A stretch of 64,000 bases of DNA from Paenibacillus sp. FSL H7-0357 (GTDB lineage: Bacteria; Bacillota; Bacilli; Paenibacillales; Paenibacillaceae), in the NCBI RefSeq assembly GCF_000758525.1, contig NZ_CP009241.1, positions 4,836,001 to 4,900,000 on the forward strand, written 5' to 3'. Below, piece by piece: positions 43,065 through 50,038 of the stretch. Both the position numbers and the translations under genes were made by a program. Numbering within the stretch: position 1 is the stretch's first letter; each line of letters opens with the position of its first letter. The notes beneath the pieces were generated by a model that saw nothing but the letters and a program-made list of their open reading frames with translations, was not told the origin of the DNA and did not search any database.

Positions 43065-44078
43065 TTACCTATAGCTCCAGGCCTGTTCGGCCATAGCCAT
43101 CATTCGCGATTGAAGAGTTACCCGTTCCAAGGAACGCACCAGTCCAGCCTCACGGGTCCCGTCCATTATTTCAGCGAAAGCTCGAAGCTGGTTCACGTAA
43201 TAATTCATTGGTTCAAAATCTTGAACTGTGCTGCGGTCATCCGGCAGATCATGGCGTATTTTCATAGGATAGAATCCTTTGAGCGGCCGTAAGAAATCGG
43301 GTACCGTCAGCACCGTCTGATCAAAATAAAGGGTATGCGAGGCGCGGTAAGGCAGTTCAAAGGAGATCAGACATTCCGCATCCAGCCCGCTGTCATACTT
43401 AAGCGATGCCTGAAAGGTCCAGTCGCAGCCGTCCGGACCGTCAAATTTCGACTGCCCGGAGATTTGCACATGTTGAAGCCCCACTATGTTCTCCACGAAC
43501 TGTAGCCAGTAACAGCCCAGGTCGGCAAAGGCACCGCCGCCTTTTGACTTGATGCTGCGGTAATTCCCGGAATGTTGGTCCTTGGCAGGAATGGTTATGC
43601 GGGTCTTCAGACTGCGCAACTGGCCATATTGACCGGAATCAATGATGGATTTGAGCGCCTGCTGCCAAGGATGATGGGCCACCATCAGGCCTTCGACTAG
43701 CTTCGGAGCTGCAGGCTGTGCCGAAGCCGTCCTCAATTGTTCCGCCTCTGCGGTAGTCAAGGCAATTGGCTTCTCGACCAGCACATGCTTGCCAGCCGCC
43801 AGTGCCTTGAGGGCCCACTCTGCATGCAGGTCGTTGCTGAGAGCGATATATACCGCATCCAGCTCCTTCATTTCCAGCAACGCCTCAAGACTGCCTGCAA
43901 CTTGGGGGATGTTGTATGCGTGAGCCAGTTCCGCCGCCTTCTCCGTGGTGCGGTTGGCAATAGCGGATACGGTAATACCATCAACATAACGAGCCGGTTC
44001 CAGCAGGGCAGGCCTGACGATATTCGAAGCACCGAGAATGCCGAGCCTGTAAGAGTGTGTCCCGCCTTCAGTCCTCAT
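43065..44078 (-). CDS. Gfo/Idh/MocA-family oxidoreductase
   Basis: 337 residues from the ATG at 44078, which overlaps the radical SAM stop codon by four bases. Rossmann start YRLGILGASNIVRPAL, then AIANRTTEKAAELA and the family's EKP motif in GKHVLVEKPIALT (catalytic Lys). The C-terminal sheet domain has FADLGCYWLQFVENIVG, close to the usual GGGALxDxGxH pattern. These NAD(P)-dependent enzymes oxidise sugars, inositols and amino sugars. As the last gene of the cluster it probably modifies the sugar or cyclitol part of the product. Confidence 0.9.
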   Translation of the reverse strand: MRTEGGTHSYRLGILGASNIVRPALLEPARYVDGITVSAIANRTTEKAAELAHAYNIPQVAGSLEALLEMKELDAVYIALSNDLHAEWALKALAAGKHVLVEKPIALTTAEAEQLRTASAQPAAPKLVEGLMVAHHPWQQALKSIIDSGQYGQLRSLKTRITIPAKDQHSGNYRSIKSKGGGAFADLGCYWLQFVENIVGLQHVQISGQSKFDGPDGCDWTFQASLKYDSGLDAECLISFELPYRASHTLYFDQTVLTVPDFLRPLKGFYPMKIRHDLPDDRSTVQDFEPMNYYVNQLRAFAEIMDGTREAGLVRSLERVTLQSRMMAMAEQAWSYR

Positions 44079-45268
44079 ACATGTGTCAGTGCCGAATAGG
44101 TATTCAGGTACAGCACATTGCACTTGGAGCAGGCCGGGGACAACCCTTCATCCAGAATCCGCCGCAGCCGGTCATAACGCTCGGAGTTCCAAATATCCGT
44201 TAACGTTTGTTCGTTTACATTGCCGATGGACAACTCAGAAAAGAACTTGCAGGCGCTCACATCGCCATTCGGGGCAATATCGACCCGGGTGCTAAGCGCC
44301 AGACATTTCGAGGTGCTGCGGGACGCCATCGGCTTGCCGGCCACGAAATCCTCAATCTCATCGAAGTCCAGTCCCGGCTGGTAACGGATGCGGGTATTTT
44401 TCCAGGTGTGGGCATTGATCCGTTTCAGGTCTTCCGTCAGCCTGACCACATTGTCAGGTTTGATATGATACTTGAAGGCATGCCAGCTGCTGCGGTGGTC
44501 CGGGCTCAGCTCGGCAAGCCATTGGAAGCGCTCGTCATAGAACCGGTCCATTTCCAGACTGGTCTCACTGGATATATACCAGGGGAAGCAGAGCAGCACC
44601 AGATCGACACCCTTTTGCTCAAAGTATTCCACCATTTCGTATAGCTTGCCGATCATATTGTCATTGATCACATTATGCACCGATATTCTGCCTCTGAACT
44701 TCCCTTGCTCCCGCAAGGCAAGCAGCCGGTCCACAGCCTCGACCACTTTTTGAAAAGAGCCTTTCCCCCGCAACAGATCATGTTCTTCCTCGAAGCCCTC
44801 AATCGGGATCAGCAGTTCCAGATTGTCCGAGATCGCACACAGCTCCTCTTCATATTTAGAGAGAAGAAGGGCATTGGTGCAAATCGTCGTATCTCTGGGA
44901 TGCGCCTTGAGCAGCTCCAGAATTTGCTGTGTATCGCGGTGAAACAACGGCTCTCCGCCCCACAAGTACAGCCTGGACTGTGCTTCATCGGTCTCCTCCA
45001 GCAGTTCGCTGATCATGTCCAGCCTCATGTCGAGATTCTGTTCGGCCTTGTCCATATCATGGTGATAGCCGGATTCATTCCACTGATAGCAATGCTTGCA
45101 ACGAAGATTACAACGGTTGGTCAGCTTGAGCGACATAATTTCCGGCATCACCGTCTTGAAGCCGGGATCAAGCTTCCGCTCTCTATGAGGAACGACTACA
45201 TTTTTGATGGTGCGTTTCAGCGCTTCAAAGGACTTGGCGTCCAGCGCTACTTTGCTGCTTGGTTGCAT
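44075..45268 (-). CDS. radical SAM protein with SPASM/twitch-type C-terminus
   Basis: 397 residues. CxxxCxxC at 53-60 (NRCNLRCKHCYQW) binds the SAM-cleaving iron-sulfur cluster, WGGEP at 103-107 is the GGE motif, and C322, C340, C380 and C383 are placed to hold an auxiliary cluster, as in SPASM and twitch enzymes. Such enzymes modify peptides (sactipeptide, PQQ, mycofactocin pathways) or oxidise cyclitols (BtrN). No precursor peptide gene was found nearby, so a carrier-bound amino acid or a sugar is the likelier target. It overlaps both neighbours by 1-4 bases. Confidence 0.88.
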   Translation of the reverse strand: MQPSSKVALDAKSFEALKRTIKNVVVPHRERKLDPGFKTVMPEIMSLKLTNRCNLRCKHCYQWNESGYHHDMDKAEQNLDMRLDMISELLEETDEAQSRLYLWGGEPLFHRDTQQILELLKAHPRDTTICTNALLLSKYEEELCAISDNLELLIPIEGFEEEHDLLRGKGSFQKVVEAVDRLLALREQGKFRGRISVHNVINDNMIGKLYEMVEYFEQKGVDLVLLCFPWYISSETSLEMDRFYDERFQWLAELSPDHRSSWHAFKYHIKPDNVVRLTEDLKRINAHTWKNTRIRYQPGLDFDEIEDFVAGKPMASRSTSKCLALSTRVDIAPNGDVSACKFFSELSIGNVNEQTLTDIWNSERYDRLRRILDEGLSPACSKCNVLYLNTYSALTHV

Positions 45269-46386
45269 TAGTTTCTCCCTTCTGCTGCATACAGACGTTC
45301 TGCATAGCTTTTGGCATAATCAGGATACCATTCTCTGGACGTTAGGATGTTCTCCGATAACCTCCGCAGCAGTTCACGGTCAAAGCCAGCCTGCTTCCAC
45401 TCCTCATAACGGATACCGAAGCCAAGCCCGACCCAGAGATCACTGTTGATTTGCTCGTGGGGACCGAACGGGTCCAGCAGCACGAGCGGAGTCCCGGAAG
45501 ACAGTGAATCGACCAAGGCACCACCACCAGGTTTACTGATGACTGCAGAGGCCTGGCGGATAACACCATACATGCCTTCTGGATAATTCTGACAAGTCGG
45601 GAACCGGTTCTCCCCGCTGCCGCTCACCTTGGCAAAAGGAGGGAAGCTGTAGTGTCCGCTGCTGTCACGGAGCCATGTCCTCCACTGCGGGTCATTCATA
45701 TAGTAATGTCTTCCGTGGATTTCTTCGCCGATCTCCTCATTGCTGTAAGCAGCTATATCAAGCAGGTAGCCCGCTGCCTCCAGCTCAGCAAATTTCTCGC
45801 GGAATGTTCCGATTCCCCAACCTCCGCCATGCACAACCAATCGGCCATTCCTTGCTGTCATGGGCAGCGGCTCGATACCCGTGTCAATTCTGCACAGCAC
45901 CTTCCGATTCACAAGGTCATACATGTTCACTTCATGGTAGCCCTGCGCATACCCGGGGTTCAGTCTGCGGAGGTTCTTCCAGGAAGGAGAGAGGTCCGCA
46001 TCGATATAGAGCAAATCGGCCAAGACTTCATAAGCCGCCGTTTCCCGGTACATATCCAGTACATGAACCCAGTGTCCGGAGAGTGTAATGAAATGCTGCC
46101 TTCCTTCCCCGCGCCAACGTTCAAATAGAGCTTTAACCACAGTGGGGTCAAGGCTGTTGCGGATATCCCCCGGTATTTTTTGCGAAGTCAGCGCCACGGC
46201 AAAATTCTCCCTGTAAGCTTTGCGGCTGTTATCTGTCGTCTTCTTCTTATCTTCAAACATTAAGGTTTCGAAGACCTCCACCTCCGCCTTGATTCCCAAA
46301 ACCTTCAGCGCCCGTTCAATCAGCAGGCCAGGGACATAAAAGCCCAGCCCAAAGCCAGAACATAGTATTGTCACTGTATCCTTCAT
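45268..46386 (-). CDS. GT-B glycosyltransferase-like protein
   Basis: 372 residues from the ATG at 46386 (GAAGGGAAG upstream); the longer open frame overlaps the ATP-grasp gene and is not used. N-terminal Rossmann domain starts VTILCSGFGLGFYVPGLLIE; the C-terminal domain has SKPGGGALVDSLSSGTPLVL and DPFGPHEQIN, the nucleotide-sugar binding region of MurG/UGT-type enzymes, with a Glu after the Pro-His pair. It should transfer a sugar from a nucleotide donor, or act in reverse. It starts 13 bp after the ATP-grasp gene. Confidence 0.75.
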   Translation of the reverse strand: MKDTVTILCSGFGLGFYVPGLLIERALKVLGIKAEVEVFETLMFEDKKKTTDNSRKAYRENFAVALTSQKIPGDIRNSLDPTVVKALFERWRGEGRQHFITLSGHWVHVLDMYRETAAYEVLADLLYIDADLSPSWKNLRRLNPGYAQGYHEVNMYDLVNRKVLCRIDTGIEPLPMTARNGRLVVHGGGWGIGTFREKFAELEAAGYLLDIAAYSNEEIGEEIHGRHYYMNDPQWRTWLRDSSGHYSFPPFAKVSGSGENRFPTCQNYPEGMYGVIRQASAVISKPGGGALVDSLSSGTPLVLLDPFGPHEQINSDLWVGLGFGIRYEEWKQAGFDRELLRRLSENILTSREWYPDYAKSYAERLYAAEGRN

Positions 46387-46399
46387 TGGCTGCTTCCCT

Positions 46400-47734
46400 T
46401 CATTTCCGCAAAATAGTATATCCGCTGCTTTGCAGCGCCTCGTCCAGCTTGACCGACAGCTCCTTCTTATGCGCAGTATCGCGGTAAGCAAGTGCCGCAT
46501 ACAGCTTGCCTTTGGTGCCTGCGGAGTGCTCCTTGCCCGGCGGATGAAGCGTTTTTGAAGTTAAAGGAATCACGCCTTCCCCGTTTTCCGCGAAGAACAG
46601 AATATTCGCTTGCTCCAAATGCTGCAGCAGCACTTCATAAGAGGCTTGCCCCATAGAAACCAGCGGGACCTGAATCAGAACTGTATGGATGTCTTCCCGG
46701 TTCAGATACCGGTCTACGCTGTGCTTGATCAGACTCATCGATTTCCGTGCGTTAATCTCGACCAGAGGCGCGATTGAGCCGTCGCGCAGCAGCATCGAAT
46801 CCACACAGACATCGCCATAATAGCCATCCTTGTAGAGATTTCTCCCTATACTGTGCATGATTTCACAATAATTCTCCTGCTCCAGCCTATCCAGCAGCGC
46901 TTTGCCGGGAGACTGTGATTCTCCGAAGGCAAACCCGTTGTTCACCAGTTGCTGCACAGACACAATGGAGATTGCACCTGCTTGATCAATGTGAAATTGA
47001 CAGGAGAAATCCATTTCGCGGTCAAGCAGCCGCTCCAGTACAAAACGGATTCGCTTCTCCTTATTCCTGCCGGATTCCAGATACCCGGCAATTCTGCGCA
47101 GGGTCCGCTCGGAATCTACCAGCTGGTTTCCTTTGCCGGAAACACCATACTCATCCTTGATCAGGAATGGGCCCTTCTTCAGCATTTGCAGCCCGGTATT
47201 CAGCAATTCCTGGACGCTGTCAACTGCTAATCCTACGTTCGGCAACGACAATCGGTCCCGCATCGCAATCGAGTAGGATTTGGTGTTCACGCTGCGAACC
47301 GTCTGCTCGTCCGGCAGTTCGGGCTGAAGGCGGTAGCGCCTTAGGGCATTCTGTGTTCCGGGAAGCACGGCAAAAGGGGAAAGCGACGCTCCCCCGGGTA
47401 TCATCCTGGCTAATGGGCCTTCCGGGTCCAGTCTGTCCAGCAGCTCAAATATATTCAGACTCTCCTGCGCAGCACCTTCCTCTTGCAATGTCATCGGATA
47501 CACATTGGTAGTGAATGCGTAGCCGAGGGAATGCAAATAATCGACCTGCGCTTTGTTCATGCCGTAACGGGTCAGCAGAACATCGCCGCTGCCGCAGAAT
47601 ACAAACAGCATTTCATCCATAGCCTGCACAATGGACATCCCGCTCAGGTCGGGAATGGAAGGCAGCGCGGCGAGGTCTTTCTCCCGCCAGTACCGTTCCG
47701 ACTCAAAGCTGCCGCAATGCACCGTAGTCTTCAT
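46400..47734 (-). CDS. ATP-grasp ligase (preATP-grasp type, BtrJ/PGM1-like)
   Basis: 444 residues, start overlapping the carrier-protein stop by four bases. Residues 1-150 look like a preATP-grasp domain (LFVFCGSGDVLLTRYGMNKA). The ATP-grasp core follows: phosphate-loop region GPFLIKDEYGVSGKGNQLV (Lys193), and the metal-binding strand APLVEINARKSMS (Glu326, Asn328, Arg330). The family makes amide or thioester bonds through an acyl phosphate. Directly after a carrier protein, the best model is BtrJ-like loading of an amino acid onto its phosphopantetheine arm. The amino acid cannot be read from the sequence. Confidence 0.8.
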   Translation of the reverse strand: MKTTVHCGSFESERYWREKDLAALPSIPDLSGMSIVQAMDEMLFVFCGSGDVLLTRYGMNKAQVDYLHSLGYAFTTNVYPMTLQEEGAAQESLNIFELLDRLDPEGPLARMIPGGASLSPFAVLPGTQNALRRYRLQPELPDEQTVRSVNTKSYSIAMRDRLSLPNVGLAVDSVQELLNTGLQMLKKGPFLIKDEYGVSGKGNQLVDSERTLRRIAGYLESGRNKEKRIRFVLERLLDREMDFSCQFHIDQAGAISIVSVQQLVNNGFAFGESQSPGKALLDRLEQENYCEIMHSIGRNLYKDGYYGDVCVDSMLLRDGSIAPLVEINARKSMSLIKHSVDRYLNREDIHTVLIQVPLVSMGQASYEVLLQHLEQANILFFAENGEGVIPLTSKTLHPPGKEHSAGTKGKLYAALAYRDTAHKKELSVKLDEALQSSGYTILRK

Positions 47735-47973
47735 TGTCCGGTAAGTCCGGCAACATAACCCGTGAAACGGTCTACCGATTTCAAATGCTCCAGATCAAAG
47801 GTATCGAAATCAACTTCGATATTAAACTCGTCTTCGATCCTAAGAATAAAATTAATAATCTGGAGAGAATCCAGAGCAGCGTCAATCGTCAAATCGGAGC
47901 TGCCGTCAAGCGTTTGCAACAACGCTGGATCCTCCTTGATTTCCGCTATGATTTCAATAACTTTTTGCTGCAT
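47731..47973 (-). CDS. acyl/peptidyl carrier protein
   Basis: 80 residues, acidic, four-helix carrier-protein pattern. Ser36 in AALDSLQIINFIL is the phosphopantetheine site (DSL motif). AAAGGAG precedes the ATG at 47973. It is not next to fatty-acid synthesis genes and heads the five-gene minus-strand cluster, so it is a dedicated carrier, comparable to BtrI. A 4'-phosphopantetheinyl transferase must come from elsewhere. Confidence 0.92.
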   Translation of the reverse strand: MQQKVIEIIAEIKEDPALLQTLDGSSDLTIDAALDSLQIINFILRIEDEFNIEVDFDTFDLEHLKSVDRFTGYVAGLTGQ

Positions 47974-48048
47974 GTGTATACTCCTTTCTCTGTGCTTACT
48001 TGGATGGAATGAAAAGAATATACCAAATTTAAAACTGTTAATATATGG

Positions 48049-48077
48049 TTGAATGCGCCAAAATATTCAGTTATACT
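48049..48077 (+). promoter_or_regulatory. sigma-A-type promoter of the AraC gene
   Basis: -35 TTGAAT and -10 TATACT separated by exactly 17 bp, 65 bp before the AraC start, in the divergent region between the two halves of the biosynthetic cluster. Confidence 0.6.
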
Positions 48078-48141
48078 AGATGGATTCCAGACTACTAATC
48101 TTATTTATTCTTCTACTTCTAGCTGAAACGGAGGTTCGTCT

Positions 48142-49074
48142 ATGGAGGTTTTTCCGGTAGTTGCTGGGGAATATCTATTTGACACAAATTCACCGGTTCA
48201 AGTGTTGCTGACCGAAGAATCGCTCACATCTGTTCTCCACCAGCATGATTTCATGGAGATCGCATATGTGCTTGAGGGAGAGGGCATTCAGCTTATCGCC
48301 GGGGACAAGATACAGGTTGCAAAAGGTGATCTGTTTGTCATCCCGCCTGAGGTATCCCATGTGTTCCAGCCCCGGGATCTGAGTGGAACACAGCCGCTGC
48401 GGATCTTGAACTGTATGCTCAGTCCTGAGGTGTTCAAGCTTCCTGCCGCTTTGCCGGCGCTCTTCACGGGGCTGTTCGATGAAGAACAGCAACGCCGGTT
48501 GCGGTTGCTGAAAGAACAGAAATCCTGGTTCGGATGCCACGGGCAGGGAATGGAACTGGAGGTCTTGTTCCGCCGCATGCAGGAGTTACATAACAACAGC
48601 CCGTCGGCAGATCCACTGAGGCTGTATCCATTATTATTCGAACTTCTAAGGATTGTCGAGCCTTGTGCGGGTGTTCCTTTCTCAGACCGTTTACAGCAGG
48701 CAGATGATCCGCTGCATGATGTAATTTTATATATGGTCAGTAATTTCAAGCAGAGAATTTCATTGAAGGAGATCAGCCGCTATATTTCCATGAGCTCGCG
48801 CCAGTTTCAAAGACTGTTCAAGCTGAAGACCGGCAAATCCTATATCCAGGTGTTTCAGGAAATTCGTATGAAATACAGCTGTGCACTGCTGATGTTCACA
48901 GACTTCGGCATTCAGAAAATTGCGCTTGAGGTCGGGATCGGAGATATGAAATACTTCTACCGTTTGTTCCGCGAATACAGCGGGATGACACCGGGTAATT
49001 ACCGTAATTGGGGGCACAGCCATTTCTCAATTGCCAAGGAGGTGATAAGTTTTGCTGAACATCCTGCCCGTTAA
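48142..49074 (+). CDS. AraC-family regulator of the biosynthetic cluster
   Basis: 310 residues with CGGAGG before the ATG. N-terminal cupin (HQHDFMEIAYVLEGEGIQ, KGDLFVIPPEVSHVFQP) and C-terminal double helix-turn-helix (ISLKEISRYISMSSRQFQRL and IQKIALEVGIGDMKYFYRLF, ending REYSGMTPGNYRN). It is divergent from the carrier-protein operon and overlaps the BtrH-like gene by 23 bp, so it probably activates both arms in response to a small molecule bound by the cupin. Confidence 0.9.
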   Translation: MEVFPVVAGEYLFDTNSPVQVLLTEESLTSVLHQHDFMEIAYVLEGEGIQLIAGDKIQVAKGDLFVIPPEVSHVFQPRDLSGTQPLRILNCMLSPEVFKLPAALPALFTGLFDEEQQRRLRLLKEQKSWFGCHGQGMELEVLFRRMQELHNNSPSADPLRLYPLLFELLRIVEPCAGVPFSDRLQQADDPLHDVILYMVSNFKQRISLKEISRYISMSSRQFQRLFKLKTGKSYIQVFQEIRMKYSCALLMFTDFGIQKIALEVGIGDMKYFYRLFREYSGMTPGNYRNWGHSHFSIAKEVISFAEHPAR

Positions 49075-50038
49075 AAGCACCCCCTACCCTACGCTTCGCA
49101 GCTGTATCGATGACTGTATCCAATCAGTGGCTGAATGGCAGGGTAAAGACAGCAAGTACATGTACGGCAATGCCTGGCAGTTCTCCTTCAAGCAACAACA
49201 GTCTTCAGGACAGTCCGTCATCGACCGGGTATCTACTCCGCGAATCAGCAAGGAGTATCTGGCGGCTTATCATGGGATAAATTTCACATATGTCAACCGT
49301 GAAGAGCCGGCGATGGACAAGTCTTTTCTGCTTGAAATGCTGGAGAAGCGGCTCGCTGGCGGCATGCCTGTTCTGGTAGGATTCGATTCCTATAGCTGCC
49401 CCTGGTGTCTGGCCTACCGTAGGCTGCATACTTCACATGCCTGTCTGGCTGTAGGCGTCGATCGTTCAAGCCGGAAGATTTATTTAACGGATGGCTACTA
49501 CGGCCGCCCCCTGGAAACGGTGGATTTGGATGAATGGGAGTCCGCCTGCCATTTCTTCGCAGAGTTCAGCCTGTGCGAAGCATCGCGCCCCCTTGGGCAA
49601 TGGCGCCTCGCCCTTGAGCATACGCTGCTGAATCAAGAGCATGAAGTCCAGCCGCTCCAGGTTGCGGAGCATCTAAGGGCCTATGCTGATGCCTACCTCG
49701 AGACAGGAATAATCGCCGAGAATCCCGAGGAATATAGTGCCTATTTCTTGCTGGCTGCCAACACCCTTCCGATCACACGGATAAGGTACAGCCTTTTCCT
49801 GAGTGCCATTTCCGCTGATCAAGAAGTGCCTGAGCTTACCCGGATTGCCGAGGGCTACCGGATTGCCGGGGAGATGTGGAATATGGTGAATCAATTTATG
49901 ATAAAGGTGATGTGTTCGGGTAACAAACCGGCACAACGCGGCAAAATTCATAAGAAAATGCTTGAAATCATTCACTCGGAAGAAGAGCTGCTGCTTGAGC
50001 TGGTGCAATTAGTGAACCAACCCGCATTCAAGAGTTAG
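49052..50038 (+). CDS. BtrH-like acyltransferase (C39-type fold)
   Basis: 328 residues from a TTG at 49052, eight bases after GGAGGTGATAAG, inside the end of the AraC gene. The N-terminal part has the BtrH_N layout: Cys18 in TLRSCIDDCIQSVAEW as probable nucleophile, MPVLVGFDSYSCPW, then a catalytic His in LHTSHACLAVGVDR and Asp in YLTDGYYGRPLE. In butirosin synthesis, BtrH moves the acyl group from the BtrI carrier to the amino sugar. The C-terminal 150 residues are helical, as in the NRPS/carrier-linked members. Together with the carrier and ATP-grasp genes this defines an aminoacyl-transfer pathway. Confidence 0.78.
   Translation: MLNILPVKSTPYPTLRSCIDDCIQSVAEWQGKDSKYMYGNAWQFSFKQQQSSGQSVIDRVSTPRISKEYLAAYHGINFTYVNREEPAMDKSFLLEMLEKRLAGGMPVLVGFDSYSCPWCLAYRRLHTSHACLAVGVDRSSRKIYLTDGYYGRPLETVDLDEWESACHFFAEFSLCEASRPLGQWRLALEHTLLNQEHEVQPLQVAEHLRAYADAYLETGIIAENPEEYSAYFLLAANTLPITRIRYSLFLSAISADQEVPELTRIAEGYRIAGEMWNMVNQFMIKVMCSGNKPAQRGKIHKKMLEIIHSEEELLLELVQLVNQPAFKS

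Follow-up and report, generated by a model that had tools for sequence, protein, structure and literature searches.

A conserved carrier protein, glycosyltransferase and radical SAM cassette in Paenibacillus and the thiotemplated pathway that it may encode

What might a bacterium build with a free-standing carrier protein whose gene stands in one run with those of an ATP-grasp ligase, a glycosyltransferase and a radical S-adenosylmethionine (SAM) enzyme? The question is raised by a cluster in 64,000 nucleotides of the Paenibacillus sp. FSL H7-0357 genome (contig NZ_CP009241.1, positions 4,836,001 to 4,900,000; hereafter the window). Genes for an acyl/peptidyl carrier protein (ACP), the ligase, a GT-B glycosyltransferase (GT), the radical SAM protein and a Gfo/Idh/MocA-type dehydrogenase follow each other on the minus strand, neighbours touching or lying 13 bp apart, and two divergent genes encode an AraC-type regulator and a BtrH-like papain-fold protein (Table 1). 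An earlier note, made from the sequence alone, had proposed that the cluster makes an aminoacylated sugar or cyclitol by a logic resembling that of butirosin synthesis. Comparison with related loci shows the finding to be genuine and larger than described there. The interpretation favored here, with a probability of roughly 0.55, is a pathway independent of nonribosomal peptide synthetases (NRPSs) but thiotemplated, in which a glycosylated (amino)acyl group is built on the free-standing carrier and is then off-loaded by the BtrH-like enzyme.

The four core genes (ACP, ligase, GT and radical SAM) recur together in other genomes. Among the best 80 of 127 ligase relatives, the loci used for all counts out of 80 below, the full set is found in 79, and the remaining locus (L093) is cut by a contig end; profile searches recover the ACP and ligase 80 times each and the GT and radical SAM protein 79 times each. 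An independent all-against-all BLAST grouping of open reading frames (ORFs) from 83 loci (L039-L121), with groups labelled by the window proteins, gives 80 for radical SAM, 79 for the ligase, 77 for the GT and 59 for the ACP, the lower counts being partly an artefact of ORF calling. The order ACP-ligase-GT-radical SAM, with a second radical SAM gene allowed between, is kept in 59 of the 80 loci, so the arrangement is not due to chance. The ACP gene immediately precedes the ligase gene in 67 loci, the GT gene immediately follows it in 74, and of the 75 loci in which the gap between the ligase and GT frames was measured, 69 have one of 300 bp or less. The association holds from the GT side as well: in 295 genomes of the window's family, 98 of 112 GT genes have a ligase gene within 1 kb on the same strand. 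Nine more loci of that family (L143-L151) all contain the four core genes, the ligase being matched in pieces in several and the GT in L149. Co-occurrence in related genomes, which the earlier note had set in advance as a test that could overturn its reading, is thereby upheld.

The core proteins also vary in concert. Across 81 loci (the 79 complete ones and two from Streptomyces), the four core proteins have distance matrices that correlate with r of 0.86-0.92, each at the permutation floor of 0.001. Because these correlations include species relatedness, genomes with two cassettes were compared in hand-picked pairs. Proteins of the same cassette type are 57-99% identical between two species (6 pairs), and those of two types in one genome are 31-51% identical (5 pairs). 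By these sequence distances, the cassettes descend as units.

Around this core, the enzymes that would load the carrier are exchangeable. For the 14 of 112 GT genes that have no ligase gene inside 1 kb, 11 loci were fetched, and 10 of these show another loader. Three of the 14 have a ligase relative 3.7-6.2 kb away (the copies of G028 and G260 are distant, at 24 and 28% identity), five have a distant ATP-grasp gene adjoining the GT gene, and five keep the ACP, GT and radical SAM genes, give no ligase match and have an adenosine monophosphate (AMP) ligase gene beside the cassette. In L138, no loader was found near the GT gene. The 14 genes had been considered as counter-examples to the linkage and were set aside as such, 13 of them having a ligase relative or another loader. 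Near the GT gene of each of the eleven loci and of one from the phylum sample (together L128-L139, 12 of 12), there are an ACP and two or more radical SAM matches. Other loci, L055 among them, hold an AMP ligase and an ATP-grasp gene together, and the AMP ligase may therefore serve a second carrier.

The same holds for the candidates for off-loading, which appear to swap by clade. The window's own BtrH family occurs in 14 of the 80 loci; counting all four BtrH-like families raises this to 60, or to 43 when the family lacking a Pfam match is excluded. Pairwise profile comparisons among the four give probabilities of 27-98%. These families are found in Paenibacillus, a free-standing condensation domain in Niastella and Streptomyces (L115, L119), and a papain-like DUF1796 protein in Methylococcaceae (L091). 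A KASIII-like gene in Clostridium and others (12 of 80 loci) might instead serve extension of the acyl group. BtrH as a standing partner is not borne out by these counts; the ACP, GT and radical SAM protein are the constant members. The aminoacylated sugar that the earlier note envisaged is partly supported.

Relatives differ further in genes of sugar-supply and deacetylase type: NDP-sugar (nucleoside diphosphate sugar) dehydrogenase, glucose-1-phosphate cytidylyltransferase, PIG-L and, near a Clostridium cassette, YdjC. Any of three NDP-sugar families is present in 23 of 80 loci and PIG-L in 6. Within the 64-kb window, the accessory-gene profiles gave no match apart from ABC-type ATPases elsewhere in it; as no sugar-gene profile matched, the donor is probably some common nucleotide sugar. 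A LysA-type decarboxylase gene accompanies the cassette in 14 of 80 loci. Three loci, from P. terrae (L084), Paenibacillus sp. BJ-4 (L075) and P. brasilensis (L078), combine two ATP-grasp genes, two carriers, a BtrH-like gene, an ABC exporter and a LysA-type decarboxylase, a version closer to butirosin logic than that of the window.

The sequences of the individual proteins are consistent with the roles proposed for them. Residue counts out of 81 refer to relatives across the related loci. The ACP scores 29.7 bits against the Pfam PP-binding model (cut-off 20.8), and its Ser36, which the earlier note had correctly named as the carrier site, is invariant in 81 of 81; the genome has two PF01648 matches for the phosphopantetheinyl transferase. 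Pfam cut-offs are also passed by the dehydrogenase, the radical SAM protein with its SPASM domain and the AraC protein. Neither the ligase nor the GT gives any match over a Pfam cut-off, and both were assigned from AlphaFold models. The ligase model has a mean predicted local distance difference test (pLDDT) value of 91.4, and its best fold matches in the Protein Data Bank (PDB) are the ATP-grasp peptide ligase 8ynd (E 3.5e-23), 3wvq and BesA (8yi6). Six residues, K193, D194, D312, E326, N328 and R330, are each invariant in 81 of 81 and would be of ATP/metal type. A search of the window's own genome for a paralogue gives one ligase match (5 of 6 candidates scored). The nearest relative, 91% identical, is filed under P. 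donghaensis. An entry 70% identical to the window's ligase is filed under the fungus Hortaea werneckii and is probably bacterial contamination of that assembly.

The GT model (pLDDT 89.3) matches SnogD (4an4, E 4.7e-10) and MurG (7d1i) in Foldseek, with moderate TM-scores (template modeling scores) of 0.45-0.60. Its HGGGWG motif is kept in 81 of 81 relatives and K285, P286 and G287 in 81, 80 and 81, respectively; E311 and N314 are also conserved in the alignment of relatives. Modeled fold and nucleotide-sugar motif together point to a GT-B enzyme of the GT1/MurG-like kind. An inner TGA had been flagged in six GT genes and one GT fragment, all from one genus (G114, G169, G122, G098, G176, G146 and G138); a conserved in-frame TGA was rejected, the codon being the natural stop within the last aligned residues at each flagged locus. 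Some genomes (G134, G202) hold four GT genes of this family, belonging to at least two types of cassette.

In the radical SAM protein, the cysteines of the CX3CX2C motif (C53, C57, C60) and four more (C322, C340, C380, C383) are each found in 81 of 81 relatives. With the PF04055 and PF13186 matches, these seven invariant cysteines indicate a protein of SPASM/twitch type. The four C-terminal cysteines align with four of BtrN (4m7t), a radical SAM dehydrogenase in the butirosin pathway in which we take them to be auxiliary-cluster ligands. Over the core, the sequences in the PDB that match best are those of SkfB and a SPASM peptide maturase rather than that of BtrN. A viperin-like role in defense was set aside in view of the SPASM domain and the gene context, the PADLOC viperin models reaching at most 57.5 bits and these over the core domain only. 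The dehydrogenase gene is present in 44 of 80 loci, and the lysine of its EKP motif (K118) is kept in 45 of 46 sequences.

The BtrH-like protein scores just under the Pfam cut-off for BtrH_N, and of six scanned relatives in its family one lies above the cut-off and five below. C18, H126, H129, D137 and D147 are identical in 15 of 15 aligned sequences, window included, and would fit a papain-type triad. By score, membership in BtrH_N is marginal. An excerpt of one account places BtrH_N near C39 and C70 and describes BtrH as an ACP:aminoglycoside acyltransferase (PMC10318531).

These parts can be assembled into a mechanism. The ATP-grasp ligase would activate an amino acid as an acyl phosphate and load it onto the phosphopantetheine at ACP Ser36; the GT-B enzyme would then use a nucleotide sugar to glycosylate the acyl group held on the ACP, whose free amine is the simplest site of attachment. 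On the carrier, the radical SAM protein, with its BtrN-like auxiliary domain, and the Gfo/Idh/MocA enzyme would oxidize or remodel that sugar, and the BtrH-like protein would pass the finished acyl group to an acceptor or release it otherwise. The AraC protein would govern the divergent promoter, probably via a conserved direct repeat, and a nucleotidyltransferase encoded next to the cassette may confer protection on the host or add a cap to the product. That the ACP, GT and radical SAM protein stay fixed while loaders and unloaders change is most simply explained if the GT and redox enzymes act on a carrier-bound acyl group; the constancy of these three, set against the inconstancy of BtrH, favors, without proving, addition of the sugar to that group over delivery of a side chain made on the carrier to a sugar or cyclitol made elsewhere. 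Gene calls, folds, invariant residues, linkage and joint inheritance underlie this scheme, whose chemistry, substrate and product are inferred.

Several points weigh against this interpretation. Linkage alone cannot tell whether the GT acts on the carrier, before it or after it. The loci were chosen through the ligase, the profiles used to scan them derive in part from the same loci, and the genome scan for the ligase scored at most five candidates per genome. Strict gene order holds in only 59 of 80 loci: the ACP and radical SAM genes lie away from the ligase gene in 13, the GT gene does so in L098-L100 and in L095 and L097, and in L096 the radical SAM gene is about 6.5 kb away on the opposite strand. 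Members of the GT family are spread widely through Actinomycetota, where gene context comes from two Streptomyces plasmids only. On a Streptomyces decoyicus plasmid (L121), a ligase relative is accompanied by an ACP, a KASIII and a LysA-type gene, and neither the GT nor the radical SAM protein is matched there. The L121 ligase relative is distant and lies in an NRPS neighborhood. Homology to PtmJ of pactamycin synthesis or to BtrJ of butirosin synthesis is at most putative. Finally, the solved structures nearest the ATP-grasp protein carry the label of peptide ligase.

That last point opens an improbable alternative, in which the protein is a carrier-independent peptide ligase and some other enzyme charges the ACP with an acyl group of another kind. 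The matches to 8ynd, 3wvq and BesA would suit it, as would the loci in which ATP-grasp and AMP ligase genes occur together (L055); it sits poorly with the place of the ACP gene, which in 67 of 80 loci is the next recognized gene ahead of the ligase and in the window overlaps with it, and with the five ligase-less loci that keep an ACP beside the GT and an AMP ligase nearby. Rather less unlikely, though still judged doubtful, is the butirosin-like scheme of the earlier note, by which the carrier makes the aminoacyl side chain only and a free glycoside or cyclitol, built off the carrier, is acylated by the BtrH-like enzyme. The BtrH-like gene itself, the BtrN-like auxiliary cysteines, the LysA-type decarboxylase near 14 of 80 cassettes and the aminoglycoside-kinase-like (APH) genes beside the Streptomyces and Lachnospiraceae cassettes all speak for it, but the BtrH-like proteins are inconstant (60 of 80 loci, or 43) where the GT is constant, and no conserved gene for biosynthesis of a second acceptor was recognized among the grouped neighbor families. 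Very improbable is a modification of the cell envelope akin to D-alanylation, in which the GT would make a surface glycan and the ACP would supply the aminoacyl groups put on it. The ACP does match the DltC model at 30 bits (E 4e-7), under the cut-off of 68; yet the scan of proteins around the cluster shows no DltB-like membrane acyltransferase or polymerase, and in relatives there are ABC-2-type exporters, methyltransferases and KASIII, which are usual for small-molecule clusters. The spread is also patchy, the GT being present in 95 of the family's 295 genomes and in 4 of 398 in the phylum sample.

The GT, as these frequencies indicate, is rare in the phylum-wide sample; the core is seen in five phyla. 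Loci in Bacillota come from Paenibacillus, Cohnella, Clostridium, Lachnospiraceae and Thermoflavimicrobium; those in Bacteroidota come from Niastella, Pedobacter and a Cyclobacteriaceae bin. Actinomycetota are represented by two Streptomyces plasmids, and Pseudomonadota (Methylococcaceae/Methylumidiphilus bins) and Cyanobacteriota (a Nostoc bin) by metagenome bins only. The lineages of Nostoc, Niastella, Methylococcaceae and Thermoflavimicrobium were taken from a taxonomy; the phyla given for the other hosts are presumed. Plasmid searches returned four records for the ligase and two for the Streptomyces GT. Among 120 listed of the 307 matches to the Streptomyces GT, many of them unnamed, no named protein of S. 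pactum, the host of PtmJ, was found.

A more sweeping claim can be made tentatively, the odds lying somewhat against it: that the cassette in the window belongs to a class of pathways not described before and spanning the five phyla, in which a fixed machine of carrier, GT-B enzyme and radical SAM protein with a single auxiliary-cluster motif works with exchangeable loaders and unloaders, carrier-bound amino acids are glycosylated, and the sugar is remodeled to a keto-sugar or cyclitol-like unit before release. If on-carrier glycosylation does occur here, it would be a general strategy, given the frequency of the GT in the family and the spread of its relatives, and a family of uncharacterized products would be opened, with natural combinations of loader and unloader for testing the chemistry. 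The window version, with eight genes only, should move easily into a laboratory host.

In the window itself, every one of the seven ORFs of the earlier note was found where it had been placed. Its overlaps and 13-bp gap hold at all junctions, with one proviso. The ACP and ATP-grasp genes overlap by 3-4 bp (ATGA); the 13 bp between the ATP-grasp stop and the GT start apply with the GT read from ATG 46386, the most likely start, a longer ORF up to 46500 running into the ligase gene; and the GT and radical SAM genes overlap by 1 bp. The radical SAM and dehydrogenase genes share an ATGA only with the internal ATG 44078, the listed GTG ORF (to 44123) giving a 49-bp overlap instead. The two divergent genes do overlap, by 23 bp on the plus strand. 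The seven genes form one unit as described, and the extent given for it left out a nucleotidyltransferase gene, convergent with the dehydrogenase gene. This gene belongs with the cassette as its eighth, since 12 of the 80 loci have it alongside. The protein reaches at most 21.8 bits against defense models, and its role may be self-protection or product tailoring; with the APH-like genes alongside the Streptomyces and Lachnospiraceae cassettes, it perhaps reflects a theme of self-protection. Elsewhere in the genome, two regions (2273605-2310609 and 4216724-4262989) contain 23 of the 25 listed carrier-domain matches; these matches lie mostly in very long open frames, and both regions are therefore probably NRPS or polyketide synthase (PKS) clusters.

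The AraC gene is divergent from the ACP gene in L039-L048 too, and the strongly conserved stretch of the divergent promoter spans 48016-48078. A 23-base block with 22 invariant positions is present in 11 of 11 ACP/AraC intergenic regions and opens with TTTGGYRYATTC, of which a second copy lies 35 bp away, exact in seven of the regions and degenerate in the other four. Within the window, TTTGGYRYATTC has 2 matches against 0.12 expected, and the paired site occurs once in the 7.69-Mb genome and not at all in a reversed control. The direct repeat is a good candidate for the AraC operator.

Table 1. Features of the cassette and its surroundings in the window (positions counted from the first base of the window)
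Feature	Position	Strand	Basis and remarks
Nucleotidyltransferase-fold protein, 265 aa	42199..42996	+	NTP_transf_2 22.7 bits (cut-off 21)
Gfo/Idh/MocA-type dehydrogenase	43065..44123	-	Likely start ATG 44078; PF01408 and PF22725
Radical SAM protein with SPASM/twitch-type C-terminal domain, 397 aa	44075..45268	-	PF04055 and PF13186
GT-B glycosyltransferase, 372 aa	45268..46386	-	AlphaFold model and Foldseek; no Pfam match
ATP-grasp ligase, 444 aa	46400..47734	-	Fold search with AlphaFold model
Carrier protein (ACP/PCP, acyl/peptidyl), 80 aa, phosphopantetheine site Ser36 (DSL)	47731..47973	-	PP-binding
Candidate AraC operator, direct repeat TTTGGYRYATTC	48051-48062 and 48016-48027 (within 48016..48062)	-	Conservation of ACP/AraC intergenic region
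AraC-type regulator with cupin sensor domain	48142..49074	+	HTH_18, AraC_binding
BtrH-like papain-fold protein	49052..50038	+	TTG start 49052; BtrH_N 28.2 bits (cut-off 29.7)

Comparison with known systems places the cassette between pathways that each share a part of it. A search of open-licence PubMed Central (PMC) papers found none that names these enzymes together or a product, in line with the earlier statement that no described cluster matches. With the butirosin side-chain pathway (BtrJ/BtrI/BtrK/BtrO/BtrV/BtrH/BtrG), the window shares an ATP-grasp ligase, a free carrier and a BtrH-like protein, and the likeness in loading and unloading first noted there stands. The pairing of ATP-grasp ligase and free carrier is seen in the window by fold and PP-binding match, and in the 67 relatives with adjacent genes, with loading as the predicted function; the radical SAM auxiliary cysteines add the alignment with BtrN. 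Unlike butirosin, the window adds a GT and a Gfo/Idh enzyme, and its BtrH_N score falls short of the Pfam cut-off. BtrK had been called absent, and a LysA (BtrK-like) profile indeed gives no match in the window; BtrO, BtrV and 2-deoxystreptamine genes were not seen among ten proteins scanned around the cluster, no profiles for them having been run over the window.

The likeness to pactamycin lies in the middle of the pathway. PtmI is the pactamycin ACP and PtmS its AMP ligase. Glycosylation and modification reportedly take place on that ACP, to go by the titles of papers by Eida (2019, 2023), and to our knowledge this is the one proven case of glycosylation of a carrier-tethered substrate. An excerpt on the gene cluster lists ptmI with PKS genes, the GT gene ptmJ, the radical SAM genes ptmC/H/L/M and the sugar-modifying genes ptmA/B/G/N (PMC13402214), and PtmJ is described in part of another paper as an N-glycosyltransferase (PMC7435583). 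ACP, GT, radical SAM and sugar-modifying genes are thus clustered in both systems, the first three in 79 of 80 loci, and relatives of the cassette add KASIII, PIG-L or an AMP ligase without the ATP-grasp enzyme. The window differs in having an ATP-grasp loader and a BtrH-like protein, and no PKS gene was recognized in its cluster. For closthioamide, the excerpted account names the ATP-grasp protein CtaD, the synthetase CtaI, the carriers CtaE and CtaH and the transferase CtaG, with the ATP-grasp enzyme predicted to load a free carrier (PMC6772006). As described in that excerpt, which names no glycosyltransferase or radical SAM protein, closthioamide synthesis differs by its thioamide chemistry and oligo-beta-alanine; it shares with the proposed pathway its independence from NRPSs, its thiotemplated character, the predicted ATP-grasp loading and tailoring on the carrier. 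By analogy with these systems, in a combination for which the search yielded no described product, the window appears to join a known logic of loading and unloading to known on-carrier glycosylation.

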